A stretch of 64,000 nt of DNA from Salinicola acroporae (GTDB lineage: Bacteria; Pseudomonadota; Gammaproteobacteria; Pseudomonadales; Halomonadaceae), in NCBI RefSeq assembly GCF_003206615.1, contig NZ_PZJW01000001.1, forward strand, positions 186,001 to 250,000, given 5' to 3'. The position numbers were made by a program, and so were the translations under genes. The notes beneath the pieces were generated by a model. It was not told the DNA's origin, searched no databases, and saw only the letters and a program-made list of their open reading frames with translations. Positions 20,239-44,139 of the stretch are shown here, one piece after another; within the stretch, counting starts at the first letter, position 1, and each line of letters starts with the position of its first letter.

Positions 20239-20276
20239 AAAGAGCCGGCGATGCCTTGGGGCATCGCCGGCTCTTT
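20239..20276 (-). terminator. Intrinsic terminator after fdhA
   Basis: A 17-bp perfect stem (AAAGAGCCGGCGATGCC with its complement), a four-base loop and flanking A/T runs lie about 70 bp past the fdhA stop on the minus strand. It is a textbook Rho-independent terminator separating fdhA from tag. Confidence 0.85.
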
Positions 20277-27123: not shown

Positions 27124-28050
27124 TTGCCGCGTGTTCGCTCTTTTCCCGCTCTCCTCGCACTTGCGATTGCCGTGCTGCTGGGGATGAGCACCGCGCAGGC
27201 GGATGCCCAGGCCGACGCCGATTCGAAACCGCCGCGGATCGCAGCCGCCAACTGGACCGTCGTCGAGACCCTCATCGCCTTGGGGGTCGAACCCTACGCG
27301 GTGTCGGATATCCCCAACTACAACGCCTGGGTCAAGGCGCCAGCGGTCCCCGATTCGACGCTGGACATGGGTCTGCGCAACGAGCCTAACCTCGAACTGC
27401 TGGCTCAGGATCCGCCCGACCTGCTGATGACGAGCGCCCTGTTCTCCCGCGACAACGCCCGTCTGGAGCGTCTGATGCCGGTGAGGATGATCGATAACTT
27501 CTACACCGACCGGCCGTATTACGAGGCGACGCTGGCAATGACTCGCGAGATCGCGAGACTGACCGGCCGGCAGCCGCAGGCCGAAGCCCTGATCGCCGAA
27601 ACCGATGCCGTTCTCGCACACGCCGCACGGGCCCTGCGAGGAGCGAAAACGCCCCTCTATCTGGTGCAGTTCAGCGATGCTCAGCACGTCCGCGTGTTCG
27701 GCCAGGGCAATATGGTGGGCACGCTGTTCTCCCGCACCGGCCTCACCAATGCCTGGGCCGGTCCGACCAACGCCTGGGGCTACGCCAGCATCCCGATCGA
27801 TCGACTCGCGGAGAGGCCCGAGGCGCGCATTGTCGTCATCAAGCCCTATCCCCGCGGCGTCGAAGAGGCCCTGGGCAACAATCAGATCTGGCGGCACCTG
27901 CCGGCGGTACGCGCGGGGCGAGTGAGCTTCATCGACCCCGTCTGGCCCTACGGCGGTCTGGTTTCACTGCAGCGCTTGGCCCGTTCGCTGGTCGATGTCG
28001 CCACCGCCGATACGTCTCGCGCCTCTTCCGTCGAGGATCAGGTGCCATGA
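27124..28050 (+). CDS. Iron-siderophore ABC transporter substrate-binding protein (FhuD-like)
   Basis: The 308-residue protein has a signal peptide (PALLALAIAVLLGMSTAQA) and the two-lobed FecB/FhuD fold, with PPRIAAANWTVVETLIALGVEP at the start of the first lobe. No upstream ATG in this frame fits, so the TTG at 27124 with AGGA about ten bases upstream is used. There is no lipobox, so it is a free periplasmic protein. It overlaps the permease gene by four bases. It should deliver hydroxamate siderophores taken in by the neighbouring receptor. Confidence 0.88.
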   Translation: MPRVRSFPALLALAIAVLLGMSTAQADAQADADSKPPRIAAANWTVVETLIALGVEPYAVSDIPNYNAWVKAPAVPDSTLDMGLRNEPNLELLAQDPPDLLMTSALFSRDNARLERLMPVRMIDNFYTDRPYYEATLAMTREIARLTGRQPQAEALIAETDAVLAHAARALRGAKTPLYLVQFSDAQHVRVFGQGNMVGTLFSRTGLTNAWAGPTNAWGYASIPIDRLAERPEARIVVIKPYPRGVEEALGNNQIWRHLPAVRAGRVSFIDPVWPYGGLVSLQRLARSLVDVATADTSRASSVEDQVP

Positions 28051-30044
28051 CGCTTCGCACGCGTTCCCCCGCCGGGTTCGCGATCGCCCTGCTGCTGCTG
28101 GCGATCGGCCTGGCAGCCGCGACCCTGCATACCCGGTTCGGCGATCTCTCCGGGTTCTGGTGGCAATCCATCGTTGCCCCCGACGATGACCAGATCCGTC
28201 AGATCGTGATGCACTACACCTTCGTGCCGAGGCTGCTGGTAGCGCTGCTGGGCGGCGCGGCACTGGCCCTGGCGGGTTGCCTGATGCAGCAGGTGTTGCG
28301 TAATCCACTGGCGTCGCCGGCGACGCTTGGCGTCACCAGCGGTGCGCAGCTGGCGCTGGTCGTTGCGACGTTGTGGGCGCCGAGCTGGATGCTGGCCGGG
28401 AGGGAGTGGATTGCCCTGGCCGGCGGCATCGTGGCGATGCTGCTGGTCTTAGCGCTCTCCTGGAAGCGACGCCTGGCGCCGATGGTGGTGGTGCTCTCCG
28501 GGATGGTGGTCAGTCTCTACTTCAGCGCGATCAACAGTGCATTGCTGCTGTTTCACCAGGAGAGCCTGTCGGGGCTGTTCATCTGGGGGTCCGGGGCACT
28601 GGCCCAGGACAACTGGCACGACTCACGCTTCCTGCTGCTACGCCTGGGCATAGTCGTCGCGCTGGCACTGTTGCTGTTACGCCCGCTGTCGCTGCTCGAT
28701 CTCGAGGAGGATGGCGCCAGAAGCCTCGGTATCTCGCTGCGCAAGCTGCGCTTCGCCGGCCTCGGCCTGGGAATCTTCATGACCGCCTGCGTGGTCAGCG
28801 CTATCGGCCTGATCGGTTTCATCGGCCTCGCCTCGCCGGCCATCGCAAGGCTCTCCGGCGCCCGCACGCTATCCCAACGGCTCGGCTGGTCGATGATTCT
28901 GGGCGCCCTGCTGCTCGCGGTGACGGATCTCGCCGTGCAGCAGCTGTCTCCGTTCACCGCTTCGTTGCTACCGACCGGCGCCATGACGGCGGCGTTGGGC
29001 GCCCCGCTGCTGCTGTGGCTGTTGCCGCGCCTGCGGGTCGGTGGATCACGACCGACGCCCAGCACCGGGCTGACCATGCCGCGCCTGGCACGACCACACC
29101 TTCGCCTGTGGGCGCTGGCGGGTTTGACGATCGTCGCCTGCGCGCTGGCGTTGCTTGTCGGCTTCATGCTCGACAGCCACACCATGCACCCCAGTGTGGC
29201 AGGCATAGGTGACCTGTCGCTCATCGTCGACTGGCGGCTACCGCGAGTGGCCACGGCCGCGGCGGCGGGGCTGATGCTGGCTATCGCCGGCACCCTGCTG
29301 CAGCGGATGACCGGCAACCCCATGGCCAGTCCCGAGGTCCTCGGCATCAGTGCCGGCGTCGCGATCGGCGTGATCGCGCTGATGCTGCTGCCGCTCGGCA
29401 TCGCGCCACTGAGCGGTTCGGTCATGGGCTTCAGCGGGGCCACGGTAGCGCTACTGGTCTTGATCGTCTGCAACCGCCGCAGTGGCTTCGCCCCGGAGCG
29501 GCTGCTGTTGACCGGCATCGCCATCTCATCGCTGCTGGATGCCATGCGCGCCATCGTACTAGCGAGCGAAGATCCCAGGGCACAGCAGTTGCTCTCGTGG
29601 CTGGGTGGGTCGACCTACTATGCCAGCCTGACTTCGAGCGGCTGGATCGTGGCAATTGCCATCCTCCTGCTGGCGCTGACACTACCTCTGCAGCGCTGGC
29701 TGACGCTGCTGCCATTGGGCGCGCCCACCGCCAAGGCGCTCGGCGTCGACGTGGATCGCAGCCGACTGATGCTGCTGGCATTGGTCGCCCTGCTGACCGT
29801 CGCCGCGACCCTGGTCATCGGGCCGCTCTCCTTCGTCGGCCTGATGGCCCCGCACATGGCGCGGCTGATGGGATTCCACGGCGCCAGGCATCAGTTGCTC
29901 GGCGCCGGTCTGCTGGGGATGCTGGTCATGGTGACCGCCGACTGGCTGGGCAGAAATCTGTTTTTCCCCTACCAACTGCCGGCGGGCCTGATCGCCGCGT
30001 TGATCGGCGGCGTCTACTTCATGTGGGGATTGCGGCGGCTCTGA
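28047..30044 (+). CDS. Iron-siderophore ABC permease, fused double-length (FhuB-like)
   Basis: The 665-residue membrane protein consists of two tandem FecCD/BtuC-type permease units of about 330 residues. Each has the LAGCLMQQVLRNPLASPATLG type motif; the second copy reads IAGTLLQRMTGNPMASPEVLG. That is the FhuB arrangement, giving about 20 transmembrane helices. It is probably co-translated with the FhuD-like gene. No ATPase gene (fhuC) follows; the next gene lies on the other strand. Confidence 0.92.
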   Translation: MTLRTRSPAGFAIALLLLAIGLAAATLHTRFGDLSGFWWQSIVAPDDDQIRQIVMHYTFVPRLLVALLGGAALALAGCLMQQVLRNPLASPATLGVTSGAQLALVVATLWAPSWMLAGREWIALAGGIVAMLLVLALSWKRRLAPMVVVLSGMVVSLYFSAINSALLLFHQESLSGLFIWGSGALAQDNWHDSRFLLLRLGIVVALALLLLRPLSLLDLEEDGARSLGISLRKLRFAGLGLGIFMTACVVSAIGLIGFIGLASPAIARLSGARTLSQRLGWSMILGALLLAVTDLAVQQLSPFTASLLPTGAMTAALGAPLLLWLLPRLRVGGSRPTPSTGLTMPRLARPHLRLWALAGLTIVACALALLVGFMLDSHTMHPSVAGIGDLSLIVDWRLPRVATAAAAGLMLAIAGTLLQRMTGNPMASPEVLGISAGVAIGVIALMLLPLGIAPLSGSVMGFSGATVALLVLIVCNRRSGFAPERLLLTGIAISSLLDAMRAIVLASEDPRAQQLLSWLGGSTYYASLTSSGWIVAIAILLLALTLPLQRWLTLLPLGAPTAKALGVDVDRSRLMLLALVALLTVAATLVIGPLSFVGLMAPHMARLMGFHGARHQLLGAGLLGMLVMVTADWLGRNLFFPYQLPAGLIAALIGGVYFMWGLRRL

Positions 30045-30966: not shown

Positions 30967-31212
30967 TCAGGAGGAACCGAAGACGGGCAGCAGATGACGC
31001 TCGATCGCCTCGCGAACGGATGGCAGCATCACGTCGGTGTGCTGCATCAGGTCGCGAATGGCGGGCTCCAACCCCTCGACGCCTCGCGCGCGATGACATC
31101 CCGCCGCCAGCCGCGCACAGCTCTCCGGGCACGCTTCCTCGGGGATACGCACCCCCAGCGAGACCAGCCGTTGACGAAAGTCCTCGCCATCGATGAGATC
31201 GACGATCATCAT
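30967..31212 (-). CDS. Small hypothetical protein
   Basis: If started at the ATG at 31212 (G-rich stretch upstream) the product has 81 residues, MMIVDLIDGEDFRQRL and onward. It has a CPESC pair and an amphipathic helical C-terminal half (LEPAIRDLMQHTD, VREAIERHLLPVF). No family is recognised. It lies about 100 bp upstream of the TIM-barrel gene on the same strand, so it could lead that transcript. Codon pattern and amphipathicity favour a real gene, but the evidence is modest. Confidence 0.5.
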   Translation of the reverse strand: MMIVDLIDGEDFRQRLVSLGVRIPEEACPESCARLAAGCHRARGVEGLEPAIRDLMQHTDVMLPSVREAIERHLLPVFGSS

Positions 31213-31375
31213 GATCCACCCCCCGTTCGACAGTGTTGCCGTGCAAGTCGCTACCAAGGCATGGCCCTCGGGCCGGCCGCATGTTCTATTATCTATCGCA
31301 TCGGGACAGGCTGCGTCGATACCCGAAACGTCGCCATGTCGGTTTCACGAAGTTCGGTGTCATTCACGGAGACGC

Positions 31376-31999
31376 ATGCCCTCGATCGCTTTTCCCTTCC
31401 CCCGTCTTCGGCGCCTGGCCTATTGGCTGCTTGCGGTGCTGCCGACGACGGCCAACGCGACTGGCTTCACCTACTGGGACGATCCCGGCGCCACGGCCGT
31501 GACACTCACCCGGGAGGAGTTCGTGGCCCAGGCCAGCCATCGCCGGGGCGAGGGCCGGCTGGCTTTCGTCAATCGCGTGATCAATAACGCCGCCCGCCAG
31601 CAGTTCGAGAAGGTCGATACCTGGAAGGGCTTCGACCGCCTGGTGAGCGACGGCTACGGCGACTGCGAGGACTTCGCTATCGCCAAGTACCAGATCCTGA
31701 TCCAGGCGGGCACTCCGGCATCACGCCTGGATTTTCTCGCCGCCGACGACACCCTGACGCCGACCTACCATGCCGTGCTGCGCTACCGGCAGGATGACGG
31801 CTCTCACCTGATTCTGGACAACCTGACGCCGATGATGCTGCCGGAGTCGCGCCGTACTGACCTGATACCGCTGGTCTCCTTCGACGCCAACCGCGCCGAG
31901 CATTTTCGCGACGGTCGCTTTCACGCCGTCGATCCGGCGCGCGTCGTGCTCGGCGGCCAGCGGCTATCGGAACGGATGCCGCACCTGATGGATTATTGA
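31376..31999 (+). CDS. Transglutaminase-like periplasmic cysteine protease (BTLCP/LapG-like)
   Basis: The 207-residue protein starts at the ATG at 31376, with GGAG five bases upstream. It has an N-terminal signal peptide (LRRLAYWLLAVLPTTANA). The mature domain has the Cys-His-Asp triad of bacterial transglutaminase-like cysteine proteases: YGDCEDFAIAKY, PTYHAVL and LILDNLTP. LapG, the known member, cleaves the N terminus of a large adhesin under c-di-GMP control. No LapD or adhesin gene is nearby, so the target is unknown. It ends four bases from the convergent GntR gene. Confidence 0.85.
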   Translation: MPSIAFPFPRLRRLAYWLLAVLPTTANATGFTYWDDPGATAVTLTREEFVAQASHRRGEGRLAFVNRVINNAARQQFEKVDTWKGFDRLVSDGYGDCEDFAIAKYQILIQAGTPASRLDFLAADDTLTPTYHAVLRYRQDDGSHLILDNLTPMMLPESRRTDLIPLVSFDANRAEHFRDGRFHAVDPARVVLGGQRLSERMPHLMDY

Positions 32000-32003
32000 T
32001 ACA

Positions 32004-32693
32004 TCACCGGTCGAGCCCTAGTTTCTGCCGACGCCGCCCCTGAGACTGCGCCTCGAGCGCGGCCGAAAAGATCGGCTTCCAGCTCGAGATGTGGACTCTC
32101 AACGTCTGGCACAACTGTTCCGCGTCACCGGCCTCGATCAGCTCGACGATGCGGTAGTGCTCGTCGACCGACTCACGTTGGCGCTCGAACCCCGCACTCG
32201 AGCGAATGCCGAAAAGCCGCATTCGGTCACGCAGCTCGAGCGCGCTCTTGGTGAGTACGTGATTGCCCGCAGCCATGAACATGGCGTTGTGGAACTGACG
32301 GTCGGCGATGAGGTAGTCCTGAACGCTGTCTTCCTTGACGGCAAGCGCAATCTGGTCCGCGTAGCCGCTCAACTCCCGCGTGCTCTGAAAGCCGTTTGCC
32401 ATCATCCGCCTGGCCGCGTGCAGCTCCAGCAATTCGCGCATGTCGAAAATATCTTCCAACTCGCTGACGGTTAGCTGAGAGACCCGAAATCCACGATTAC
32501 GAATGGGTTCGACGAGCCCCGCGTTGGCCAACTCCAGTAGCGCTTCACGCACTGGAGTCGTCGAGACGTCGAGCTCCGCCGCCAATGCCGGTACCGAATA
32601 GAGCGAGCCGGGGCGACTCTCTCCGGAGATGATTTCCGAACGAATCTGCTTAAGGATCTGCTCGCGCAAGCTGTCATGCATGGGAATGCTCAT
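32004..32693 (-). CDS. GntR/FadR family transcriptional regulator
   Basis: The 229-residue regulator has an N-terminal winged helix (VPALAAELDVSTTPVREALLEL, then LVEPIRNRGFRVSQL) and a C-terminal all-helical FCD effector domain. Two ATGs compete (32693 and five codons later); the first is used. It is divergent from the molybdopterin oxidoreductase gene across 114 bp that contain an 11-bp palindrome. It therefore very likely controls that operon in response to a carboxylate substrate. Confidence 0.9.
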   Translation of the reverse strand: MSIPMHDSLREQILKQIRSEIISGESRPGSLYSVPALAAELDVSTTPVREALLELANAGLVEPIRNRGFRVSQLTVSELEDIFDMRELLELHAARRMMANGFQSTRELSGYADQIALAVKEDSVQDYLIADRQFHNAMFMAAGNHVLTKSALELRDRMRLFGIRSSAGFERQRESVDEHYRIVELIEAGDAEQLCQTLRVHISSWKPIFSAALEAQSQGRRRQKLGLDR

Positions 32694-32807
32694 TGGGAAT
32701 GGAATGTTGCACCTCGGCTAGCCTATCCCGTCTGCCTTGACACCACCAATGGGCCAATGCATTTTAGTAGCGCATTACTCTAATGCGCTACAGAGGTCGC
32801 ATTCCCC
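32694..32807. promoter_or_regulatory. Divergent GntR/Mo-oxidoreductase promoter with palindromic operator
   Basis: GTAGCGCATTA at 32767-32777 and TAATGCGCTAC at 32781-32791 form a perfect 11-bp inverted repeat with a three-base spacer, 16 bp before the oxidoreductase start. A TTGACA hexamer lies at 32737-32742. The palindrome sits where a repressor would block transcription initiation or early elongation. Confidence 0.6.
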
Positions 32808-35800
32808 ATGGCCGAGCGACGACTCGAGGGCTACTGCACGCTGTGCCGCTCACGCTGCGGCACACAAACCCTCGTGCGCGACAACACGATGATCTCGGTC
32901 AGCCCCGCGCCAGAACATCCCACCGGCGGCGCGCTCTGCGCCAAGGGCCGGGCCATGCCGGAGATCGTCGCGAATCCCAATCGTCTGCGCGCCCCGCTCA
33001 AACGCGTGTCACCCAAAGGCACCGCCAAACCGCAATGGCAGGAAATTTCCTGGTCGGAGGCGCTGGATGAGATCGCCACGCGCCTGGGCACCATTCGGAC
33101 GTCGCACGGCGCCGAATCCGTCGCCTTCGCGGTGACTACGCCCAGCGGCACGCCCATGGTCGACAGTTTCGAGTGGGTCGAGCGTTTCGTGCGCTGTTTC
33201 GGGTCGCCCAATCTGATCTACGCAGTGGAGGTGTGCGGCTGGCACAAGGACCACGCCCACAAGCTGACTTTCGGTCAAGGCATCGGCTTCGCGGACTACG
33301 AACGAGCCGATGTCATCGTGCTGTGGGGTCACAATCCGGCGCGCACCTGGCTCGCCCAGGCCTCGAGAATTGCCGCGGCGCGCAGTCGCGGTGCAAAGGT
33401 CGTCGTGATCGACCCCAAGCCTGACGGATCCGGGCAACAGGCCGATTTGTGGCTGCGCGTCAGACCCGGTACGGACTCGGCCATCGCCATGGGCGCCATT
33501 CGCCACCTGATCGCAACGAAGACCTACGACGACGCCTTCGTGAGACGCTGGACGAACGCCTGCGCGCTGGTGAATCGGGCCACGGGGCACTTGGTCAGAG
33601 CACGATCGTTGTGGCGTGGGGCCGCACCGGACACATTGGTCGTCGTGGACGAAAGCGGGGAGCTACGCCCTTTCGACCCGAGGCATGCCGATACGAGCGC
33701 TGACGATCTGGCGCTTCGTTATCAGATGACGTTGAGCGACCTGGACGGCAACAAATTTCAGGCCACCACGGTCTTCATGTTGCTGGAAGCATCCAGTGAA
33801 CCGTTTACCCCGTCACATGTCGTGGAGATGTGCTGGGTCGACCCCGATCCGCTCGAGCAGTTCTATACACTGCTCGAGCACAACCCGCGCCTGGCCTATC
33901 ACGCGTGGACGGGCGTAGGGCAGCATACCAACGCCACCGCTATCGAGCGGGCCATCGCCAGCCTCTACGCCTTGACCGGCGCCTGTGACGCGCCCGGCGG
34001 CAATATCTGGCCGACGCCGCCGCCGACCCGTTCCGTCAACGACTATGCCCTGCTGGAACCGTCGCAGCAGAGGAAAGCGCTGGGACTCGACGAACTGCCG
34101 CTCGGCCCACCCGCCAACGGTTGGATCACGGCCCGCGATTTCCGCCGGGCCGTGCTCGAGGCTCACCCTTATCCGATACGAGCGTTGATGAGTTTCGGAA
34201 CCAATTTCGTCGCCTCTCAGGCCGATGCCGCCAGCAATCTTCGCGCCCTGCACGCTCTCGACTTCCACGTGCACGCCGACATCTTCATGAACCCGACCGC
34301 TGAGTGCGCCGACATCGTGCTACCGGTCAACCTCCCGGCCGAGCGTGACGCGCTCAAGATCGGCTTCGAGATCGATCAGGCCGCAGTGGAAACGATCCAG
34401 TTCCGCCAGAAGGCCATCGACTGTGAGTTCGATGCGCGCTCCGACTACGACATCGCCTTGGAACTCGCCACGCGGTTGGGCCACGCGGAAGCGTTCTTCA
34501 ACGGCGACATCGAAACCGGCTGGAACTGGCAACTGGAACCGCTGGGCATCTCCGTCGAGCAACTGCGCCGGTGTCCGGGTGGCAAACGGTTTCCCCAGCA
34601 AGCGCCACTGTACAAATACCGTCAGTCGGATTCGACAGACCGCCTGAAGGGTTTTCCCACCGAATCCGGGCTGGTGGAGCTCTACTCTGAGCGACTGTTC
34701 GACGTGCACTACCCGCCGGTCGCCACTCACCTTGAAAGCGACGCCGCCAACGAGAGTGACAATGCGCGATACCCTCTCACCTTGACCACGGCCAAGTCAG
34801 GCTGGTTCGTGCATACGTCGCACCGCCACATCGCTTCACTGCGCAAGAAATCCCCCGACCCCGGTGTCGAGATCAGCCCGGCATTGGCCAGCTCCCGTGG
34901 GCTCGAGGAGGGGGATTGGGCCGTGATCGAGACGAACGCCGGACAAGCGGAACTGCGCGTAAAGCTCAACCAACGGCTGGATGATCGCGTGGTCATCGCG
35001 GAATTCGGCTGGTGGCAGTCCTCGGAGGCCTTCAATCGTCCGGCGACTCCGGTCGCAGGCCCCGGCACCCGAAACATCAACGCGGTATTGAGCGATCACG
35101 CACGCGACCCCATCAGTGGCTCGGTACCGCTGCGGGCGGTCTCCTGCCAGATTCGAGCGCATACCAGCGCCAATGCGGGAAACTGGGGCGGCTGGCGGGA
35201 CTTTACGGTCACGGCCAGACGTGTAGAAAGTGAGGATACCGTGGCGCTCGAGCTCGAACCCTGTAACGGCCAACCCCTGCCTGCCTTCCTCCCCGGACAA
35301 TACGTGCCGTTGAGGCTTGATGAAAACGGCCCGACGCGCGCCTACTCGCTGACTGGCTCGGGGCTGCCGGCCGCTACCTTGTCCATCGGCGTGCGGCGTC
35401 AAGGCGGCGACGCCGGGACACAGGCTGGCACCTCGGTCTCCACGGCCATTCATCGGCTCGAGTTGGGTAGACGTCTGCAACTGGGTTCCCCTCGCGGTGC
35501 GTTCAATCCGCCCACGTTCGCCACCGGACGCCCGCTCATCTTTCTGGCTGCCGGTATCGGTATCACGCCGTTCGTGAGCGTGTTGGCGCGGCTCGCCTGC
35601 GAGGGCAGCACGAGCGATATCCACCTGTTGCACGGCTGTCGCAACTCGCAGGCGCACCCCTTTGCCCGGCGATTGAAGGCGCTGGACGCCGAGTTGCCCG
35701 GTCTGAAGCGAACGAGTGCATACTCCGCCCCGCTGGCGTCGGATCGCCTCGGCGAGCATTTCTCACACCACGGGCGCATTGATTTCGGGAGCGTCGCATC

Positions 35801-36200
35801 GTGGGTCTCACGCAGGCCCCTCGTCTATATCTGCGGCTCCCCCGCGTTCACCCGCGCGGCGAAAAAAGCCATGCAGGCGCTGGGAATTCCGGCGTTCGAT
35901 ATCGTGGCGGAATCATTCAAATCGCCGGCCACGATTCCCGATGGACTCGAATCTCAGACCGTGCGGCTGGCTGGTAGCGATCGCGAATTCGTATGGCGAC
36001 CGGAAATGGGCTCGCTGCTCGATGCGGCGACGGCGCATGGTATTTCGCTACCCAATGGATGCCGCGTCGGCCAGTGCGAAAGCTGCCTGTGCCATATCGT
36101 CAGTGGAAAAACCGCCCACCTTCAGGAGACACAGCTCGAAGAGAATCAATGCCTCACCTGCCAGGCCATTCCGCTGACGCCTATCACGCTTGCCGTTTAG
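32808..36200 (+). CDS. Molybdopterin oxidoreductase fused to flavin reductase and 2Fe-2S ferredoxin
   Basis: This 1130-residue protein joins three modules. Residues 1-750 are a DMSO-reductase-family bis-MGD domain. A 4Fe-4S site (C10, C13, C17, C44) leads it, C143 in EVCGWHKDH is the likely molybdenum ligand, and a C-terminal molybdopterin dinucleotide-binding domain closes it. About 800-1030 is a ferredoxin-NADP-reductase-like domain (RAYSL at about 843; FLAAGIGITPF). About 1045-1130 is a plant-type ferredoxin (C1085, C1090, C1093, C1115 or C1118). The reductase tail resembles Rieske-oxygenase reductases. It has no Tat signal, so it should work in the cytosol on NAD(P)H or NAD(P)+. The substrate is unknown; the neighbour is a fatty-acid transporter. 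Confidence 0.88.
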   Translation: MAERRLEGYCTLCRSRCGTQTLVRDNTMISVSPAPEHPTGGALCAKGRAMPEIVANPNRLRAPLKRVSPKGTAKPQWQEISWSEALDEIATRLGTIRTSHGAESVAFAVTTPSGTPMVDSFEWVERFVRCFGSPNLIYAVEVCGWHKDHAHKLTFGQGIGFADYERADVIVLWGHNPARTWLAQASRIAAARSRGAKVVVIDPKPDGSGQQADLWLRVRPGTDSAIAMGAIRHLIATKTYDDAFVRRWTNACALVNRATGHLVRARSLWRGAAPDTLVVVDESGELRPFDPRHADTSADDLALRYQMTLSDLDGNKFQATTVFMLLEASSEPFTPSHVVEMCWVDPDPLEQFYTLLEHNPRLAYHAWTGVGQHTNATAIERAIASLYALTGACDAPGGNIWPTPPPTRSVNDYALLEPSQQRKALGLDELPLGPPANGWITARDFRRAVLEAHPYPIRALMSFGTNFVASQADAASNLRALHALDFHVHADIFMNPTAECADIVLPVNLPAERDALKIGFEIDQAAVETIQFRQKAIDCEFDARSDYDIALELATRLGHAEAFFNGDIETGWNWQLEPLGISVEQLRRCPGGKRFPQQAPLYKYRQSDSTDRLKGFPTESGLVELYSERLFDVHYPPVATHLESDAANESDNARYPLTLTTAKSGWFVHTSHRHIASLRKKSPDPGVEISPALASSRGLEEGDWAVIETNAGQAELRVKLNQRLDDRVVIAEFGWWQSSEAFNRPATPVAGPGTRNINAVLSDHARDPISGSVPLRAVSCQIRAHTSANAGNWGGWRDFTVTARRVESEDTVALELEPCNGQPLPAFLPGQYVPLRLDENGPTRAYSLTGSGLPAATLSIGVRRQGGDAGTQAGTSVSTAIHRLELGRRLQLGSPRGAFNPPTFATGRPLIFLAAGIGITPFVSVLARLACEGSTSDIHLLHGCRNSQAHPFARRLKALDAELPGLKRTSAYSAPLASDRLGEHFSHHGRIDFGSVASWVSRRPLVYICGSPAFTRAAKKAMQALGIPAFDIVAESFKSPATIPDGLESQTVRLAGSDREFVWRPEMGSLLDAATAHGISLPNGCRVGQCESCLCHIVSGKTAHLQETQLEENQCLTCQAIPLTPITLAV

Positions 36201-36328
36201 TAGAGGACAGTGCAGATACCGACACCAATAACAATGAACGGGAAAAAATGCGCCGTACCCGCCACAACCAGAAAGACCCTTCTAACAACCACAATCAAAC
36301 CTCTCGTAGTCGAGACAAGGATCGAGAA

Positions 36329-37642
36329 ATGATCAAACCATTGACCCAGGCGTTCGTGACGCTCTTCGACCGCTACATGCCAGACCCTTTCGTACTGGTA
36401 TTGCTCATCACGCTACTGGTTTTCTTCTGCGGTATTGCGTTCGAAGGTCAGACCCCACTGGCGATGCTGGACTACTGGCAGGGTGGGTTCTGGAATCTGT
36501 TGAGCTTCGCCATGCAGATGACACTGATCCTGGTCGCGGGTTTTGCCGTCGCCAAGACGCCGCTGTTCGAACGCCTGGTCGATCGCCTGGCCAGCATTGC
36601 CAAGACGCCCGGGCGCGCCATCATCACCGTCAGCCTATCCACGCTGATTATCTGCTGGCTCAACTGGGGCATGGGACTCGTCGCGGGGGCCATACTGGCC
36701 CGCCAGCTATCGGCCCGCGTCGAGGGCGTCGATTACCGCCTACTGGTGGCAAGCGCCTACGCGGGCTTTATCACCTTCCACGCGGGGCTCTCGGGTTCGG
36801 CGCCGCTGTTGATCGCCACACCGGGCAATTTCCTGGAAGACCAGATCGGACTGATTTCTACCACTGAAACGATCTTCGGCTGGTTAAACATCAAGATAAT
36901 GATCGCCGTTCTTATCGTCATGCCGCTGACCTGCCGACTACTGATGCGAGGCATCGACAAGCCCGTCACCTTGAACGTCGAACAGACCGAGGCAGTGATA
37001 AGAGAGACACGTTCCGCGAGAGATCTTCGCCCCGCCGAGCGCCTCGAACGGTCCAGAACCCTGGCTTGGATATCCGCGGCACTTGGCGCGGCCTGCCTTT
37101 CGCTCTATGTCGCCAACGGAGGTGGTCTCAATCTCAATCTGGTCATTTTCATTCTCATTTTCCTGGGTCTGGCGCTGCACGCCAACGTTCAGAGCTTTCT
37201 CAAGGCGCTCGATGACTCGACCCAGGGCATATCGGGAATTCTGATCCAATTTCCCTTCTATGCCGGCATCATGGGGATGATGAATTCATCCGGACTTGGC
37301 AGTAGTATTGCGCAGTTTTTCGTCAATATCTCATCGGCCGATACGCTGCCTTTTTTGAGTTTCCTGTCGGCAGGGTTCATCAACATTTTCATTCCGTCGG
37401 GCGGCGGACAGTGGGCCGTCCAGGGTCCCATTCTCGCCGAGGCCTCGCAGTCGCTGAACGCCTATTTTCCGGACGTGGTCATGGGCTTCGTCTGGGGCGA
37501 CACGCTGACCAACCTCATCCAGCCATTCTGGGCGCTACCGGTGCTGGCCATCGCGGGGTTGAAAGCGCGTGACATCATGGGCTTTTGCGCGATGATCATG
37601 ATCGCGACCGGGATTGCCATTTCTCTCGTGCTGCTCTTCTAG
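36329..37642 (+). CDS. Short-chain fatty acid transporter (AtoE family)
   Basis: The 437-residue integral membrane protein has about 11-12 helices. The AtoE-family motifs are FHAGLSGSAPLLIATPGNFL, QFPFYAGIMGMMNSSGL, FINIFIPSGGGQWAVQGP and GDTLTNLIQPFWALP. The ATG at 36329 has AAGGA upstream; the frame is open into the preceding gene but only as a shadow. The family carries acetoacetate, butyrate and related short acids. It lies 128 bp behind the molybdopterin fusion gene and is closed by a terminator, so it probably imports that enzyme's substrate. Confidence 0.88.
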   Translation: MIKPLTQAFVTLFDRYMPDPFVLVLLITLLVFFCGIAFEGQTPLAMLDYWQGGFWNLLSFAMQMTLILVAGFAVAKTPLFERLVDRLASIAKTPGRAIITVSLSTLIICWLNWGMGLVAGAILARQLSARVEGVDYRLLVASAYAGFITFHAGLSGSAPLLIATPGNFLEDQIGLISTTETIFGWLNIKIMIAVLIVMPLTCRLLMRGIDKPVTLNVEQTEAVIRETRSARDLRPAERLERSRTLAWISAALGAACLSLYVANGGGLNLNLVIFILIFLGLALHANVQSFLKALDDSTQGISGILIQFPFYAGIMGMMNSSGLGSSIAQFFVNISSADTLPFLSFLSAGFINIFIPSGGGQWAVQGPILAEASQSLNAYFPDVVMGFVWGDTLTNLIQPFWALPVLAIAGLKARDIMGFCAMIMIATGIAISLVLLF

Positions 37643-37737: not shown

Positions 37738-38583
37738 TTACTCCCCAGAGGGAGCAGTCAGGATGCGCTCCCGACGCAGATAATCGATCAGCTTCTCGGC
37801 GGCCTCCTCCGGCGAGAGGTCGGTCAATACCTGGCCACCCGACGCGGAGGACTTGGCCGCGGCCGCCTTGAAGCGATCCCGCGCATTGGTCGATTTGACC
37901 ACTTTGAGACGCTTGGGCCGCGCGCGGGCCGGCTGCCACTGCCACGCCGCCTGCAGCGTATCGGGCTCGGCCGTGACATTCGCCACCGCCTCCACCCGCC
38001 CGCGCCGGGACGGGCCGAAAGCGCTCTGGCGCGGCATCGGTGCCACGCCATCGACGCACAGCAGGCATGGCAGACGCACTTCGAGCCGCCGTCGCTGACC
38101 CTGGGGTAGCGCCTGCAGCACGGTGACGCGGTCGCCCGCGTAGTGCTCGATCGCGGCGACGCCGGTGGCCACCGCCCAGCCCAGCCGCTCGGCCAGCAGA
38201 TAGGGCAGCAGGCCCGAACCCTCGCCGCACTCGGCGCGCTGCCCGGTCAGCACCAGGTTGGCGCCATAGGCCTCGAGCCAGTTCGCCAGCAGCGGCACGG
38301 CGTCGTCGCCGGCGGCCATTGGCAGCAGCGAGAGCTCGCCGGGCCCGCCGGCACCCTCGAGACCGTGGAACATGCCCAGGTACTCCGGCAGCGCCGCATC
38401 CTCGGCATCGCCGGCGTGGGCCAGATGCAGCGAGGCCCCCGCCAGTGCCAGCCCCATCTCCACCGCGCGGGCATCCTCCCGCGCCCGTCCGGCGCGCCCG
38501 GAGACCGGATGCCGGCCGCTGGAGACCAGCGCGACGACCCTGGCCTCACCGGCCGCGCTGGCGCTGCGCTCAGGCTGCGTCAT
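37738..38583 (-). CDS. etfB: Electron transfer flavoprotein beta subunit of the dimethylglycine pathway
   Basis: Started at 38583, the protein has 281 residues. ETF-beta features include EDARAVEMGLALA, the LVLTGQRAECGEGSGLLPYLLAE segment, GWAVATGVAAIE and the C-terminal EKLIDYLRRERIL. It has the character of the divergent ETF found next to dgcAB in Pseudomonas (PA5400-PA5401 type), not of the housekeeping ETF. With EtfA it should carry electrons from DgcAB. The gene overlaps etfA by 14 bp and is last in the operon. Confidence 0.85.
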   Translation of the reverse strand: MTQPERSASAAGEARVVALVSSGRHPVSGRAGRAREDARAVEMGLALAGASLHLAHAGDAEDAALPEYLGMFHGLEGAGGPGELSLLPMAAGDDAVPLLANWLEAYGANLVLTGQRAECGEGSGLLPYLLAERLGWAVATGVAAIEHYAGDRVTVLQALPQGQRRRLEVRLPCLLCVDGVAPMPRQSAFGPSRRGRVEAVANVTAEPDTLQAAWQWQPARARPKRLKVVKSTNARDRFKAAAAKSSASGGQVLTDLSPEEAAEKLIDYLRRERILTAPSGE

Positions 38584-39868
38584 GGCGCACCTCCTCGTGC
38601 CGGCTGTCGCCGCTCTCGGGTTGGGGTTGGGGTTGGCCCAGCTGGGAACAGACCGCCGCCAGCACCGCATCACCATCGCCGATGATGGCGAAGTCGGCAC
38701 GCTTGACCATGTCGCAGCTCGGGTCGCTGTTGATCGCTACCACCCGCTGACACTTGGTGATGCCCTGCAGGTGCTGTACCGCGCCGGAGATCCCCACCGC
38801 GACATAGCAGCTCGCGCTGACGAAGGTACCGGTGGCGCCGACCTGGCGCGCGCGCGGCATGTAGCCGTCATCGACGGCCACCCGCGAGGCACCCTCGCTG
38901 GCACCCAGCACCTTGGCGGCGTGATGGTAGCCCTCCCAGTCGCTGACACCGCGGCCGGCGGAGAGAATGAAGGGCGCCTGGGCCAGCGGGATCTGCTGCG
39001 GGTCCACCGCGACCCGGCCGCGGTCGATGACACCCGGCGCCGCTGACGCATCACCCGCCGAGGCGTCGAGATCCAGCAGCGTCGCCGCATGGCGGGTGTC
39101 GCTGACCGGTTCGGCGCACTCCGGCAGTGCCAGCAGCACCCGCGCCACGTCGCGCTGGATGTCCTGGCGGTCGCCGGCGCGGGAGAGCGTCTGGCCATCG
39201 GCGAACTGCCACACCCGGGTCGCCGCACGCGCCGCGCGTGCCGCAGCGTCGCCGGCAAGCGCCAACCGCGCGGCCAGGCGCCGGCCGAGATCGCCACCAC
39301 CGGGGAAGTCGTCGGCAAAGATCCAGTGCGCCGGGGCGAGTGCGGTTTCCACCGCTGCGAGCGCCGCCAGGCGTGCCTCCGGCGCGTAGCTGTCGGCGTC
39401 GACCTGGGACGACAGATCGATCCGGCGGTCGGCGCCGGCCTCCTCGAGCCCGGCGACCTCGGCCTGGAAGGTGACCGCAACCACGGCCACCCCCGTCTCG
39501 GCACCGCCGCGGGCCTCGGCCAGCTGGCGCGCCAGTCCGAGCAAGTCGCGGTCGTGATCGCTCAGGCGCCCTTCCGGCAACTCCGGCACCACCGCGACAT
39601 ACGCCGTGGGCGTGTCGATAGTGACCTGGCGCCGGCTCGGCTCGGCGCTGGCCTGGGTACCACCTGCCGCCGCCTCGACGCTGGCGCCGCTGCGGTCGAT
39701 GCGCTTGATGCCGTTGGGGCCGATCGCGCCCAGGGCGTGAGGGTTGATCCGGGTCACGCCGTCGGCACTGGTCCAGCGCCAAGCTGGCCGTGCGAATTCG
39801 AGATGACGCGGATGCAGCCGATTGCGCCGAGCGCGTTCGGCGTGCGGGTCGAGTCGTCTGACACTCAT
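38570..39868 (-). CDS. etfA: Electron transfer flavoprotein alpha subunit of the dimethylglycine pathway
   Basis: The 432-residue protein has an ETF-alpha C-terminal FAD domain (ILSAGRGVSDWEGY, SRVAVDDGYMPRARQVGATG, YVAVGISGAVQHLQGI, VAINSDPSCDM). Its N-terminal extension is about 100 residues longer than in ordinary EtfA and rich in Arg. That extension is typical of the betaine-pathway paralogue. The start overlaps the dgcB stop (ATGA) and the stop overlaps etfB. Function follows from position: electron acceptor for dimethylglycine demethylation. Confidence 0.88.
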   Translation of the reverse strand: MSVRRLDPHAERARRNRLHPRHLEFARPAWRWTSADGVTRINPHALGAIGPNGIKRIDRSGASVEAAAGGTQASAEPSRRQVTIDTPTAYVAVVPELPEGRLSDHDRDLLGLARQLAEARGGAETGVAVVAVTFQAEVAGLEEAGADRRIDLSSQVDADSYAPEARLAALAAVETALAPAHWIFADDFPGGGDLGRRLAARLALAGDAAARAARAATRVWQFADGQTLSRAGDRQDIQRDVARVLLALPECAEPVSDTRHAATLLDLDASAGDASAAPGVIDRGRVAVDPQQIPLAQAPFILSAGRGVSDWEGYHHAAKVLGASEGASRVAVDDGYMPRARQVGATGTFVSASCYVAVGISGAVQHLQGITKCQRVVAINSDPSCDMVKRADFAIIGDGDAVLAAVCSQLGQPQPQPESGDSRHEEVRHDAA

Positions 39869-41847
39869 GCCGGAACCTCCTCAGGGGCTTCGGTGCTGTT
39901 ACGCGCGGTCGGCGCCGCAGCCGGCTCGGCCAGTGCGGCGGCGACCAGCTCGGCGAGATCCTTGACCTGGGGCCGCGGCTCGACCACGCCCTCGAGCATT
40001 GCGGTGCACTGGGGGCAGGCCACGGCCACGGTGGTCGCCCCGGTCTCGCGCACGTCCTCCATGCGCATGTCGGGGATACGCGCCTTGCCCGGCACGTCGG
40101 AGAGCGCGGCACCGCCACCGCCGCCACAGCAGCGCGAGCGGTAGCCGGAGCGCTCCATCTCGGCGACCTCGACGCCGAGCGCGGCGAGCACCTGGCGCGG
40201 CGCGGCGAACTCACCGTTGTAGCGGCCCAGATAGCAGGGGTCGTGATAGGTCACCGTCTCGCCCGGCTCGGCGGCCTTGACGCTGAGCCGGCCGGCGTCG
40301 AACAGCTCGGCAATGAAGGTCGAGTGGTGCTTGACCACGTAGTCGCCGCCGAAGGCGCCATACTCGCGACCCAGCACATGGAAGCTGTGCGGGTCGGCGG
40401 TGACGATGCGCTGGAAGCGGTAGCGCGACAGCGTGGCGATATTGCGCTCGGCGAGGCGCTGGAAGGTGGCCTCGTCACCCAGTCGGCGGGCGACGTCGCC
40501 GCTGTCGCGCTCTTCGTCACCCAGCACGGCGAAGTCGACCTCGGCGGCGCGCAGGATCTTGACCAGCGAGCGCAGGGTGCGCTGGTTGCGCATGTCGAAG
40601 GCGCCGTCGCCCAGCCACAGCAGCACATCGACTCCTTCCGGGCGCTGCTGGATACGCGGGATATCGAGGTCCGCCGCCCAGTCCAGGCGCGAGGCGTTGT
40701 CGAGCCCGCCGGGGTTGTCGGTGGCGATCAGATTGTCGATCGCCGCGGCACCCTTCTCTGGGGTCTCGCCCCGCTCCAGAGTGATGAAGCGGCGCATGTC
40801 GACGATGGCATCCACGTGCTCGATCATCATCGGGCACTCTTCGACACAGGCGCGGCACGTGGTGCACGCCCACAGCGTCTGCGCCTCGACCAGCTGCGGC
40901 ACGATGGCATCAGTTGGCCCACCATGGTGCTTGCCGACCTCGATGCCGGGATAACCGGAGCCGGCATAGCGGGCGTCACTGCCGCCGGCCATGCCCACGA
41001 CCATGTCCTGGATCAGCTTCTTGGGGTTGAGCGGCTGGCCGGCGGCGTAGGCCGGGCAGACATTCTGGCAGCGGCCGCACTGGACGCAGGCGTCGAAACC
41101 GAGCAGTTGCTCCCACTGGAAATCGGCGGGCTTCTCCACGCCCAGCGTCTTCGCCGTGAGATCGAGCGGGAAGAGCGCGGTGGAGCGGCTGCCACGATGC
41201 ACATCGTGCGCCACGTCGCGGTGCTGATCGTCGAACCGCTCGGGGCGGCGATGGAAGGCCAGATGGAAGGTACCGGCGAAGGCGTGCTTCATCGGCCCGC
41301 CCCAGCCCATGCCGATCAGCATCTCGGCCAGGCCCCAGGCGACCAGTGCCAGCAGGATCAGCGCCAGCACGCCGCCACCCAGTACGGTCGGCGCCACGCC
41401 CACCAGCGGCAGGCTGACCAGGAACATGCCCACCGAGTAGGCCAGCAGACTCTTCGACAGCCGCTGCCACGGCCCCTTGGAGAGCTTGGCCGGCGGATCG
41501 ATACGCCGGCGGTTGACCGCCAGCGCGCCGATGAACATGCACAGGCTCGCCGCCAGCAGCAGCCCGCCCAGAATCGGGTTGCGCCAGCCGAAGCCGTGGA
41601 CCACCAGCGCCAGCGCCATGGCAGCGACGAAGCCCCCGGCGGTGGCCACGTGGGTGTGCGCGATCGCCTTGTCGCGGGCGACCACATGGTGCAGGTCGTT
41701 GAGATAGCGCTTGGGCATCAGCACGAGCCGATGCCAACGCATCGGCGTGCGCCGCCCCTGGCGCCACAGCCGGATGCGGCGCACCGCGCCCGCCGCACCC
41801 ACCGCCAGCGCGGCAAAGATCAGAATGGGGAGTAGCGTCTGCAGCAT
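39865..41847 (-). CDS. dgcB: Dimethylglycine demethylation protein DgcB, membrane Fe-S protein
   Basis: The 660-residue protein has about five N-terminal membrane helices (DUF3483-type region). Two 4Fe-4S motifs follow (CVQCGRCQNVCP and CTTCRACVEECP), then two CCG heterodisulfide-reductase-like domains (HDPCYLGRYN and SRCCGGGGG). It resembles glycolate-oxidase/Hdr iron-sulfur subunits and should pass electrons from DgcA toward the membrane or ETF. The start at 41847 has GGAG upstream. It follows dgcA after a 222-bp gap that contains a long hairpin. Confidence 0.92.
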   Translation of the reverse strand: MLQTLLPILIFAALAVGAAGAVRRIRLWRQGRRTPMRWHRLVLMPKRYLNDLHHVVARDKAIAHTHVATAGGFVAAMALALVVHGFGWRNPILGGLLLAASLCMFIGALAVNRRRIDPPAKLSKGPWQRLSKSLLAYSVGMFLVSLPLVGVAPTVLGGGVLALILLALVAWGLAEMLIGMGWGGPMKHAFAGTFHLAFHRRPERFDDQHRDVAHDVHRGSRSTALFPLDLTAKTLGVEKPADFQWEQLLGFDACVQCGRCQNVCPAYAAGQPLNPKKLIQDMVVGMAGGSDARYAGSGYPGIEVGKHHGGPTDAIVPQLVEAQTLWACTTCRACVEECPMMIEHVDAIVDMRRFITLERGETPEKGAAAIDNLIATDNPGGLDNASRLDWAADLDIPRIQQRPEGVDVLLWLGDGAFDMRNQRTLRSLVKILRAAEVDFAVLGDEERDSGDVARRLGDEATFQRLAERNIATLSRYRFQRIVTADPHSFHVLGREYGAFGGDYVVKHHSTFIAELFDAGRLSVKAAEPGETVTYHDPCYLGRYNGEFAAPRQVLAALGVEVAEMERSGYRSRCCGGGGGAALSDVPGKARIPDMRMEDVRETGATTVAVACPQCTAMLEGVVEPRPQVKDLAELVAAALAEPAAAPTARNSTEAPEEVPA

Positions 41848-41963
41848 CGGACTTCTCCGGAAATCGCACCGACCATGAAAGCGTATCGGATCGGGTTGGC
41901 GAGAGGCGGTCGAAAAAGCGCGTACCGCCCTGATCACCAGGCTAGAGAAAGCGTCATGAGCGA

Positions 41964-42052
41964 CGCTCAGGCGCGGCGAAGGACGGCGAGCCAGCGGAGT
42001 GGACGTGTTTGTCCATGAGCATGGCGAGCCGGACTTCAACAATGCCTGAGCG
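41964..42052 (-). repeat. Long intergenic hairpin between dgcA and dgcB
   Basis: CGCTCAGGC at 41964-41972 pairs perfectly with GCCTGAGCG at 42044-42052. An inner TGGAC/GTCCA stem at 42000-42015 carries a six-base loop. The inner block GTGGACG..TGTCCATGAGC also occurs in the hairpin at 44891-45008. A separate small stem (TGCACT/AGTGCA, 42066-42080) covers the dgcA stop codon. Confidence 0.65.
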
Positions 42053-42069
42053 AGCGCAATCGCTTTGCA

Positions 42070-44139
42070 CTAAAAGTGCATGCACAGCCGCAAGGCATCG
42101 TATATCGCCGCATGCGTATTGCGCTGCGCCACACAGTCACCGATCCGGAACAGCGCGAACTCGCCGCTCTCGGCCAGGGTCGGCTGGGGCGCGATCGCAT
42201 ACAGCGCCTCGACATCGATCTGGCCGTGGTTGCGCGAACGCGACTTGAGCGCATAGTAGAGCGACTCGTCCGGACGCACGCCGTTCTCGATCACCACCTG
42301 ATCGACCACCCGCTCCTCGTGCTCGCCGGTGTACTCGTTCTCGAACAGCGCCACCAGCTTGTCACCTTCGCGGTAGACCTTGTGCAGCCCCAGGTCGCCG
42401 GTCATCACCACCGACTGCTGATAGAGGCTGCGGTAGTAGGTCGGGAAGGTGGTGCCACCGATCGCCACACCGGGCTTGGTGTCGTCGGTGACGATCTCCA
42501 CCGTGGCGCCCTTGCTGGCGAGATAGTCGGCGGTGGACATGCCACTGAACTCGCACATGGTGTCATAGACCAGCACGTTTTTACCCGGCTCGACCTTGCC
42601 GCTGAGGATGTCCCAGCTGCTGACCGCCAGGCTCTCCTCAGGATTTTCCGAGTAGCCCCACTCAGGCACCTGCTCGAGGAACGGATGACCGCCGTTGGCC
42701 AGCACCACCAGATCGGGCTGCAGGTCGCGCACCATCGAATCGTCGGCGCGGGTGTCGAGCTGGACATCGACGCCGAGGCGCGACAGCTCCATCTCGTACC
42801 AGCGGGTGATACCGGCGATCTGGTCGCGCTGCGGTGCCCGCGCAGCAAGGGTGACCTGGCCGCCGAGCTGGGGCTGGGCTTCAATCAGGGTCACGTCGTG
42901 GCCGCGCTCGGCGCTGACGCGGGCCGCCTCCATGCCGCCGGGGCCGCCGCCGACCACCACCACGCGGCGACGGGGTCCGCTGGTTTTCTCGATGATGTGC
43001 GGCAGGCCCATGTACTCGCGCGAGGTCGCCGCGTTCTGGATACAGAGCACGTCGAGGCCCTGGTACTGGCGGTCGATGCAGTAGTTGGCGCCCACACACT
43101 GACGGATCTGGTCGGTCTGGCCGTTCTTGATCTTGGCGATGATGTGCGGGTCGGCGATGTGCGCCCGGGTCATCCCCACCAGGTCGACGTAGCCGCCCTC
43201 GAGAATACGCTCGGCCTGGGTCGGATCCTTGATGTTCTGGGCGTGGATGACCGGGACCGAGACCACCTCCTTGATGCCCGCCGCCAGGTGCAGAAACGGC
43301 TCCGGCGGATAGGACATGTTGGGAATGACGTTGGCCAGGGTGTCGTGGGTATCGCAGCCGGAGCCGATCACGCCGAAGAAGTCGACCATGCCGGTGGCAT
43401 CGTAGTAGGCGGCGATCTGCTTCATGTCGTCGTGGGAGAGACCATCGGGATGGAACTCGTCGCCGCAGATGCGCATGCCGACACAGAAATCGTCACCGAC
43501 TTCGGCACGCACCGCCTTGAGCACTTCCATGCCGAAGCGCATGCGATTCTCGAAGCTGCCGCCCCACTGGTCGGTACGCTTGTTGACGCGCGGGCTCCAG
43601 AACTGGTCGATCAGGTGCTGGTGGACCGCGGAGAGTTCGCAGCCGTCGAGTCCGCCCTCCTTGACCCGGCGTGCGCCCTGGGCGAAATCACCGATGATGC
43701 GCCAGATCTCTTCTTCTTCGATGGTCTTGCAGGTAGCGCGGTGAACCGGCTCACGGATCCCGGAGGGCGAGACCAGGGTCGACCAGTTGTGGCCGTCCCA
43801 GCGCGAACGCCGCCCCATGTGGGTGATCTGAATCATGATCTTGCCGCCATGCTTGTGCACCGCATCGGCGAGATTCTGGAAATACGGAATGATGCGATCG
43901 GTGGAGACGTTGACCGAGCTCCACCACTGCTGCGGGCTGTCGATGGAGACCGGCGAGGAACCGCCGCAGATGCAGAGACCACAGCCACCTTTCGACTTCT
44001 CTTCGTAATACTTGACGTAGCGATCGGTGGTCATGCCGCCGTCGGTGGCATGCACCTCGGCGTGGGCGGTACTGACCACACGGTTGCGGATCGTCAGCTT
44101 GCCGATTTGAATCGGCTTGAATAGCGCTTCATGGGCCAT
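42070..44139 (-). CDS. dgcA: Dimethylglycine demethylase flavoprotein DgcA
   Basis: The 689-residue protein belongs to the trimethylamine-dehydrogenase/old-yellow-enzyme group. It has an N-terminal FMN TIM barrel (LFKPIQIGKLTIRNRVV), then a 4Fe-4S segment, then a C-terminal FAD/NAD-type domain (VVVGGGPGGMEAARVSAERG). The cluster segment reads C-V-G-A-N-Y-C with a later C, so Ala replaces the second of four ligands seen in trimethylamine dehydrogenase. It demethylates dimethylglycine to sarcosine. It lies between the DUF5943 gene and dgcB, in the order known from Pseudomonas. Confidence 0.94.
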   Translation of the reverse strand: MAHEALFKPIQIGKLTIRNRVVSTAHAEVHATDGGMTTDRYVKYYEEKSKGGCGLCICGGSSPVSIDSPQQWWSSVNVSTDRIIPYFQNLADAVHKHGGKIMIQITHMGRRSRWDGHNWSTLVSPSGIREPVHRATCKTIEEEEIWRIIGDFAQGARRVKEGGLDGCELSAVHQHLIDQFWSPRVNKRTDQWGGSFENRMRFGMEVLKAVRAEVGDDFCVGMRICGDEFHPDGLSHDDMKQIAAYYDATGMVDFFGVIGSGCDTHDTLANVIPNMSYPPEPFLHLAAGIKEVVSVPVIHAQNIKDPTQAERILEGGYVDLVGMTRAHIADPHIIAKIKNGQTDQIRQCVGANYCIDRQYQGLDVLCIQNAATSREYMGLPHIIEKTSGPRRRVVVVGGGPGGMEAARVSAERGHDVTLIEAQPQLGGQVTLAARAPQRDQIAGITRWYEMELSRLGVDVQLDTRADDSMVRDLQPDLVVLANGGHPFLEQVPEWGYSENPEESLAVSSWDILSGKVEPGKNVLVYDTMCEFSGMSTADYLASKGATVEIVTDDTKPGVAIGGTTFPTYYRSLYQQSVVMTGDLGLHKVYREGDKLVALFENEYTGEHEERVVDQVVIENGVRPDESLYYALKSRSRNHGQIDVEALYAIAPQPTLAESGEFALFRIGDCVAQRNTHAAIYDALRLCMHF

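Follow-up and report, generated by a model that had tools for sequence, protein, structure and literature searches.

Which reaction is catalyzed by a molybdenum (Mo) enzyme that carries its own NAD(P)H reductase and ferredoxin in one polypeptide chain and is encoded next to a carrier for short-chain acids? This question is raised by a locus of Salinicola acroporae (assembly GCF_003206615.1), located in a stretch of 64,000 nucleotides (contig NZ_PZJW01000001.1, positions 186,001–250,000 of the forward strand) that is called the window in the following and whose own numbering is used. The central gene encodes a fusion of three modules, and it is followed by a gene for an AtoE-type short-chain fatty acid transporter and flanked on the other side by a divergent gene for a GntR/FCD regulator. 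Judged from gene content and conservation, this arrangement may represent an inducible uptake-and-reduction operon, in which an NAD(P)H-driven Mo reductase would convert an imported ring acid to a pyrroline-carboxylate and hence to proline, a reading that we favor tentatively and at a little less than an even chance. The features on which the analysis is based are the following, where bis-MGD stands for the bis-molybdopterin guanine dinucleotide cofactor.

32004–32693, minus strand: GntR/FCD regulator, 229 residues, divergent from the fusion gene (PF00392, 54.6 bits; PF07729, 81.5 bits)
32737–32742, plus strand: TTGACA, predicted –35-like hexamer of the fusion promoter, read from the sequence
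32767–32791, no strand: palindrome GTAGCGCATTACTCTAATGCGCTAC, 25 bases (arm 11, gap 3), just downstream of TTGACA, predicted and probable operator of the GntR protein
32808–36200, plus strand: three-module Mo fusion, 1130 residues, a single open reading frame (ORF) with no internal stop
32808–35147, plus strand: bis-MGD catalytic module, residues 1–780, with an N-terminal 4Fe-4S site formed by C10, C13, C17, and C44 (PF04879, PF00384, PF01568)
33228–33251, plus strand: family signature E141-x-C143-x-W145-H-K147-D148 from the alignment of 38 fusions, with C143 as the likely Mo or tungsten (W) ligand
35160–35927, plus strand: FAD/NAD(P)H reductase module, residues 785–1040 (PF00970, PF00175), with matches to flavohemoprotein and phthalate dioxygenase reductase
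35940–36197, plus strand: plant-type 2Fe-2S ferredoxin module, residues 1045–1130 (PF00111)
36329–37642, plus strand: AtoE-type short-chain fatty acid transporter, 437 residues (PF02667, residues 1–437, 462.3 bits at a cutoff of 27)

Six Pfam domains were found in the fusion, all of them over their curated cutoffs: Molybdop_Fe4S4 (residues 9–56), Molybdopterin (59–555), and Molydop_binding (657–776) are followed in the tail by FAD_binding_6 (799–899), NAD_binding_1 (912–1019), and Fer2 (1053–1122). In the alignment of 38 fusions, C10, C13, C17, C44, E141, C143, W145, K147, and D148 are invariant and H146 is nearly so, and of the Fer2 cysteines C1085 is invariant and C1090, C1093, and C1118 nearly so. 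The composition of bis-MGD, FNR-like, and 2Fe-2S parts and the cysteine ligands that had been read by the original prediction are thus borne out. The alignment column of C143, which we take to be the metal-ligand position, is occupied by Cys also in acetylene hydratase (structure 2e7z) and in thiosulfate reductase (2vpw). With three domains over cutoff and this conserved Cys column, the fusion belongs to the bis-MGD (dimethyl sulfoxide reductase) superfamily. Among the matches listed (25 of 41), no NCBIfam family reached its cutoff with the fusion; formate dehydrogenase alpha (TIGR01591) scored 231.3 at a cutoff of 666.25, and the NasC equivalog 144.3 at a cutoff of 1100. Identities as formate dehydrogenase, NasC, or thiosulfate reductase PhsA were rejected in view of these profile scores far under the cutoffs.

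The original prediction had itself named a frameshift or an assembly error that joins separate genes as an objection. This was ruled out, as the fusion was found in 46 loci after de-duplication, which were compared with 20 loci of relatives that carry an unfused or split Mo gene (individual loci of either kind are given L-numbers below). Two broken copies are among the 46, namely L026, where the ferredoxin part is annotated as a gene of its own, and L037, which was recovered as several tblastn pieces. Neighboring genes at 50 loci and at 15 more were obtained by ORF calling and subsequent tblastn correction, whereas L117 and L127–L129 were read via tblastn alone. Near-duplicates were dropped (L062, which shares its contig with L009; L041, near L010; L068 and L129, near L040). 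The loci kept are still partly close kin (for example L060/L061, L065/L067, and L076/L077), and the Fisher p-values for linkage, which treat related loci as independent, are indicative only. The stretches of L114, L115, L122, and L124 are short, and the absence of partner genes there carries little weight.

Is the transporter a genuine partner of the enzyme? The AtoE gene is covered by PF02667 over its full length, and the gene order that had been predicted, with AtoE behind the fusion and a divergent regulator in front, was confirmed. The mechanical ORF extends from 35993 to 37642, and the ATG at 36329 was chosen as its start, where the PF02667 match begins; with the NCBIfam model TIGR00366 the protein scored 453.3, under the cutoff of 575.75. 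A same-strand AtoE gene at most 1.1 kb downstream is present in 18 of the 46 fused loci, as the next gene in 15 and behind a gene of the ornithine cyclodeaminase (OCD) family in 3, but in none of the 20 unfused or split relatives. Because of this difference, the fusion–AtoE operon is real. Two AtoE subfamilies pair with the fusion (53–89% vs. 31–35% identical to the copy in L028), and the AtoE-bearing fusions are spread over several separated clades of a quick tree (48 rows, from which loci fetched later were left out). GntR, fusion, and AtoE occur together in Rhodococcus too, and the neighborhood survey proposed earlier turned out in favor of a conserved operon. If OCD genes are included, 24 of 46 fused loci have one partner or the other, compared with 0 of 20 (Fisher p 1e-5). 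No signal peptide was seen by eye in the fusion, which is probably cytosolic, and the notion of a self-sufficient Mo enzyme with links to an acid carrier and a regulator is supported. Within positions 1–15530 of L065, a LysR–fusion–AtoE unit sits as a self-contained cassette between recC and recB, and L067 has the same neighbor clusters; the large ORFs flanking this unit had been considered as 5-oxoprolinases and are recC and recB.

This linkage bears on the proposal that the fusion is a divergent assimilatory reductase of nitrate (or another oxyanion), of the NasN kind, beside which AtoE would stand by chance. The NasC profile does match, and NasN is built on the same principle, an NAD(P)H-dependent reductase in a single chain (PMC7816997). 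The match is, however, far below the NasC cutoff given above, the eight neighboring proteins scanned include no nitrite reductase or nitrate transporter, and the linkage to AtoE (18 of 46 loci vs. 0 of 20) hardly looks like coincidence. We therefore consider a nitrate reductase very improbable.

Which acid is imported, and what becomes of it, is suggested by a second group of partners in the relatives. A same-strand OCD-family gene that passes PRK06141, the model for Delta1-pyrroline-2-carboxylate (Pyr2C)/Delta1-piperideine-2-carboxylate (Pip2C) reductase, lies nearby in 11 of the 46 fused loci (L011, L027, L028, L031, L037, L038, L064, L071, L078, L088, and L127) and in none of the 20 others; all 11 intact same-strand OCDs score between 389.7 and 429.4 at a cutoff of 322. 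Ten of these genes are found downstream within 2.5 kb (farthest in L078) and the one of L071 just upstream, and L086 has a 198-residue OCD piece of the same kind that stays under the PRK06141 cutoff. Fusion, OCD, and AtoE are combined in five loci, with OCD between the other two in L027, L064, and L127 and directly after AtoE in L028 and L037. In L063, whose fusion is 66% identical to that of the window and falls into its clade in the tree, an extra proC (TIGR00112, 231.6 at a cutoff of 196.75) starts two bases past the GntR stop, and ProC-like matches occur at two other places in the same genome, with identities of 38 and 32%. In L066, AtoE is followed by a gene grouped by clustering with the Ldh_2 protein of L074, and a 47% identical Ldh_2-like gene is divergent from the fusion in L111. 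In the R. opacus locus, proline dehydrogenase and pruA are encoded about 5 kb away on the opposite strand, and TRAP transporter genes come after OCD in L088 and, by clustering, in L011. Proven Pyr2C (proline-ketimine) reductases are known from the OCD as well as from the MLD2 (Ldh_2-type) superfamily (PMC4113996). The occupation of one slot by different protein families points to one kind of intermediate, a pyrroline-carboxylate, and together with a tail of the NAD(P)H-oxidizing kind such a product suggests a two-electron reduction of the imported acid. On account of these reductases, the original statement that the enzyme oxidizes, reduces, or hydroxylates its substrate can be narrowed to most likely reduces; the imported acid is retained, but a nitrogen-containing ring acid takes the place of the short hydroxy- or keto-acid.

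The same partners would also be explained if the Mo module worked in reverse, with NAD(P)+ as the acceptor and a cyclic amino acid such as D-proline or pipecolate as the compound oxidized, and the OCD reduced the resulting imine to the L-form. Many bis-MGD enzymes are dehydrogenases, but in an FNR module with a plant-type ferredoxin electrons usually flow away from NAD(P)H, AtoE and TRAP systems are thought of as anion carriers, and the oxidation of cyclic amino acids is already performed by flavin enzymes. A reverse dehydrogenase thus appears improbable. The main rival is a Mo module that strips oxygen from nitrogen: the substrate would be a small carboxylate with an oximino, N-hydroxy, nitro, or N-oxide group, such as pyruvic oxime, and the product an imino acid, which OCD-type enzymes would convert to an amino acid. 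N–O and S–O reductions are standard chemistry of bis-MGD reductases, a short acid would suit AtoE, and relatives of OCD include alanine dehydrogenase and iminosuccinate reductase, which were found as lower-scoring matches. In contrast, all 11 intact OCDs belong to the cyclic-imine subfamily, and ProC, employed at one locus, is known to act on a cyclic imine; we hence consider oximino or N-oxide acids unlikely as substrates.

In the uptake-and-reduction operon that we favor, AtoE would import a small monocarboxylate. NAD(P)H would reduce the FAD of the FNR module, from which electrons would pass singly to the 2Fe-2S cluster, on to the 4Fe-4S cluster, and finally to the molybdenum (or tungsten) bound by Cys. 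This center would reduce the substrate by two electrons, with a pyrroline-carboxylate-type cyclic imino acid as the product. In the relatives, a linked imino-acid reductase would take this product to proline, in most cases an OCD, in one a dedicated ProC, and in another perhaps a member of the Ldh_2 family; in the organism of the window, such a reductase would have to be encoded elsewhere. Proline would then feed glutamate. Of this scheme, the modules, the conserved cysteines, and the conservation of operon and partner genes are established, whereas the direction of the reaction, the product class, the substrate, and the operator are inferred.

As the substrate we favor pyrrole-2-carboxylate, the simplest acid we can name that has one carboxylate and is an anion without a basic amine, as would suit AtoE and TRAP. 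Reduction of its C4=C5 bond would give the enamine tautomer of Pyr2C, the substrate of OCD, and reduction of C2=C3 that of Delta1-pyrroline-5-carboxylate, the substrate of ProC, so that a single compound could account for the partner enzymes observed. If heats of formation are compared for furan, pyrrole, and their dihydro forms, the potential of this reduction is roughly estimated at about –0.4 V; by the same rough reckoning the ring-reduction step would be hard for NADPH alone and would be pulled by the downhill reduction of the imine. The fusion would then reduce pyrrole-2-carboxylate at the expense of NAD(P)H, with no need for oxygen or ATP; it would abolish the aromaticity of the pyrrole and, together with a pyrroline-carboxylate reductase, lead to proline. 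Stated in this specific form, in which the identity of the substrate is inferred throughout, the proposal is doubtful.

Several observations weigh against a ring acid that is reduced on the way to proline. Neither AtoE nor OCD is present in 22 of the 46 fused loci, including L060 and L061, two of the three other copies of the same genus. No imino-acid reductase is encoded beside the fusion of the window among the eight neighboring proteins scanned, the best OCD of this genome scores 252.9 with PRK06141, under the cutoff of 322, and its one ProC match is on another contig. The OCD of L109, whose fusion is 59% identical to that of the window, is a true ornithine cyclodeaminase on the opposite strand and was not counted. 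ProC and a same-strand Ldh_2 gene are one case each; the Ldh_2-like protein of L066 passes no NCBIfam cutoff, and the unfused L074 adjoins an Ldh_2 gene as well, over the cutoff for malate/lactate/ureidoglycolate dehydrogenase, for which reason Ldh_2 is weak evidence and is given little weight. OCD enzymes act on open-chain imino acids as well, and the reduction of a pyrrole ring is not known to us for any Mo enzyme. For the full protein with 5 alignment rows from the window and related loci, AlphaFold2 yielded no usable fold (pLDDT 44, pTM 0.34). To judge by reference titles, the described attack on pyrrole-2-carboxylate is by a monooxygenase or a decarboxylase.

The absence of both partners from 22 of 46 loci and a window that shows AtoE and GntR only would equally suit an enzyme that reduces or hydroxylates a short acid without nitrogen, in line with the original prediction, with OCD and ProC serving other ends in the relatives. 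Their positions in the five three-gene loci, where OCD lies between fusion and AtoE or right behind AtoE, argue against such separate roles, and we regard a nitrogen-free substrate as unlikely. A hydroxyproline pathway had been suspected from ORF lengths beside the same-genus loci L059–L061, but the genes of L060 proved otherwise (a galactarate-dehydratase-like protein, a KdgT-like protein, an oxidoreductase matching PRK11579, a short-chain dehydrogenase/reductase, and a 2A78-type carrier). The sugar genes of L087 (PfkB, FGGY, and mannitol dehydrogenase) were taken as unrelated.

How does the fusion compare with characterized systems? By sequence, with the single protein as well as with the 38-row profile, acetylene hydratase is the nearest solved structure of the Mo module, including the Cys in the C143 column. 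Acetylene hydratase is a non-redox enzyme without reductase modules, however, whereas FNR and Fer2 modules are fused here, and the fusion is thus not assigned to it. In addition, about 75 residues (profile columns 252–327; residues ~250–325; window ~33555–33782) have no counterpart in the acetylene hydratase alignment and are possibly a substrate- or partner-specific insert. Residues 251–330 have the highest AlphaFold2 confidence inside the Mo part, in a model that is unusable overall (pLDDT 44). The order FAD, NAD, and plant-type 2Fe-2S in the tail is shared with reductases of the phthalate dioxygenase reductase (PDR)/VanB type, and PDR itself (2pia) was aligned over profile columns 796–1135 of the fusion; PDR/VanB reductases serve a Rieske oxygenase, while the tail of the fusion would feed a Mo center in the same chain. 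Mo catechol dehydroxylases of gut Actinobacteria, whose closest kin is acetylene hydratase and whose reaction is the reduction of an aromatic ring (PMC7028382), resemble the fusion by literature descriptions, not by sequence comparison. With the trans-3-hydroxy-L-proline pathway, in which a dehydratase is combined with an OCD or MLD2 Pyr2C reductase (PMC4113996), the proposed route would share the second step from Pyr2C to L-proline, but the first step would be a Mo reduction instead of a dehydration.

The original prediction had called it rare for an enzyme of this class to carry an NAD(P)H reductase of its own. This has to be corrected insofar as there is a precedent in NasN of Mycobacterium smegmatis, a monomeric nitrate reductase whose single chain combines the Mo module with the use of NADPH (PMC7816997); the principle is therefore not new, but NasN is a diflavin enzyme by its cited title, while the fusion has FAD and a 2Fe-2S ferredoxin. 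The statement that no named pathway is known to have this layout stands for the literature searched, which left most subscription journals outside and in which no description of this domain combination and operon was found. A recurrent molybdoenzyme family with built-in electron supply thereby gains a specific substrate class to test. In a recent paper, the microbial metabolism of pyrrole-2-carboxylate is called "known but poorly understood" (PMC12899673). If the proposal is true, ring reduction would be added to the repertoire of one-chain Mo enzymes, and the fusion would be, to our knowledge, the first Mo enzyme by which a heteroaromatic ring is reductively dearomatized. Pyrrole-2-carboxylate would then have a reductive route in addition to those by monooxygenase and decarboxylase that reference titles describe.

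The same three-module protein shares 39–68% identity across the full length in relatives; the one of Halomonas sp. JB37 is at 67%. Matches with E ≤1e-100 were obtained within the genus in 4 of 18 genomes, within the family in 10 of 250, within the class in 4 of 369, and within the phylum in 5 of 398. In two other families, 10 of 199 and 6 of 199 genomes had such a match, as did 11 of 249 and 10 of 240 in wider groups around two genomes there; these sets overlap, include the window itself where drawn, and contain some matches to the Mo part only. Furthermore, 26 plasmid records carry the fusion over at least 80% of its length, each at less than 60% identity, with hosts that include Rhodococcus opacus, Paraburkholderia, Agrobacterium, Phaeobacter, Klebsiella, and E. 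coli. This patchy spread over chromosomes and plasmids of Proteobacteria and one Rhodococcus plasmid suggests that the fusion was moved by transfer.

On large plasmids of Enterobacter, Klebsiella, and E. coli (L029, L032, L040, and L129), the fusion lies near genes for heavy-metal P-type ATPases (L029, L040, and L129) or transposases (L032), and no AtoE or OCD match was found in these stretches by tblastn. Two Variovorax plasmids (L042 and L128) have a split form, with the Mo gene and a separate adjacent reductase gene, annotated as "PDR/VanB family oxidoreductase" in one and as "oxidoreductase" in the other; both reductases match the FNR part at 27–28%, and neither matched the ferredoxin part of the fusion. 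On the opposite strand, a dihydroorotase/dihydroorotate dehydrogenase gene set adjoins in both, orotate being another ring carboxylate. As a guide to function, unfused relatives were of no help, since the neighbors of the four scanned were mixed.

How might the operon be controlled? The nearest NCBIfam model of the GntR/FCD protein stays under its cutoff. The gap between its gene and the fusion comprises 114 bases, and the TTGAC of the predicted –35-like hexamer is shared by the same gap in L009, L063, and L109. The regulator would bind the palindrome at 32767–32791 and come off in the presence of the acid or its product. The arm length of 11 of this palindrome was reached by 0 of 2000 dinucleotide shuffles, and palindromes as large occur in five 50-base bins of the window. 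GCGC-containing palindromes are found in the same gap of L009, L063, and L077, short ones only in L075 and L076, and none in the gap of L109. Two longer palindromes in the window, at 20252 and 60213 (arms 15–17 and 13–16), are perhaps terminators.

Convergent with the AtoE gene, a minus-strand set at 37738–44139 encodes EtfB- and EtfA-like proteins, a DUF3483/CCG iron-sulfur protein, and an Oxidored_FMN/Pyr_redox enzyme; we take it to resemble a demethylation operon of the dimethylglycine type, and it is probably unrelated to the fusion. On the other side, a BTLCP (Peptidase_C93) protein encoded at 31193–31999 (plus strand; LapG model far under cutoff) is convergent with the GntR gene. Farther upstream, two overlapping plus-strand ORFs (27124–30044) lie beside a large minus-strand ORF (24667–27897); presumably, the former encode a siderophore-binding protein and a double-length FhuB-type permease, and the latter a TonB receptor.

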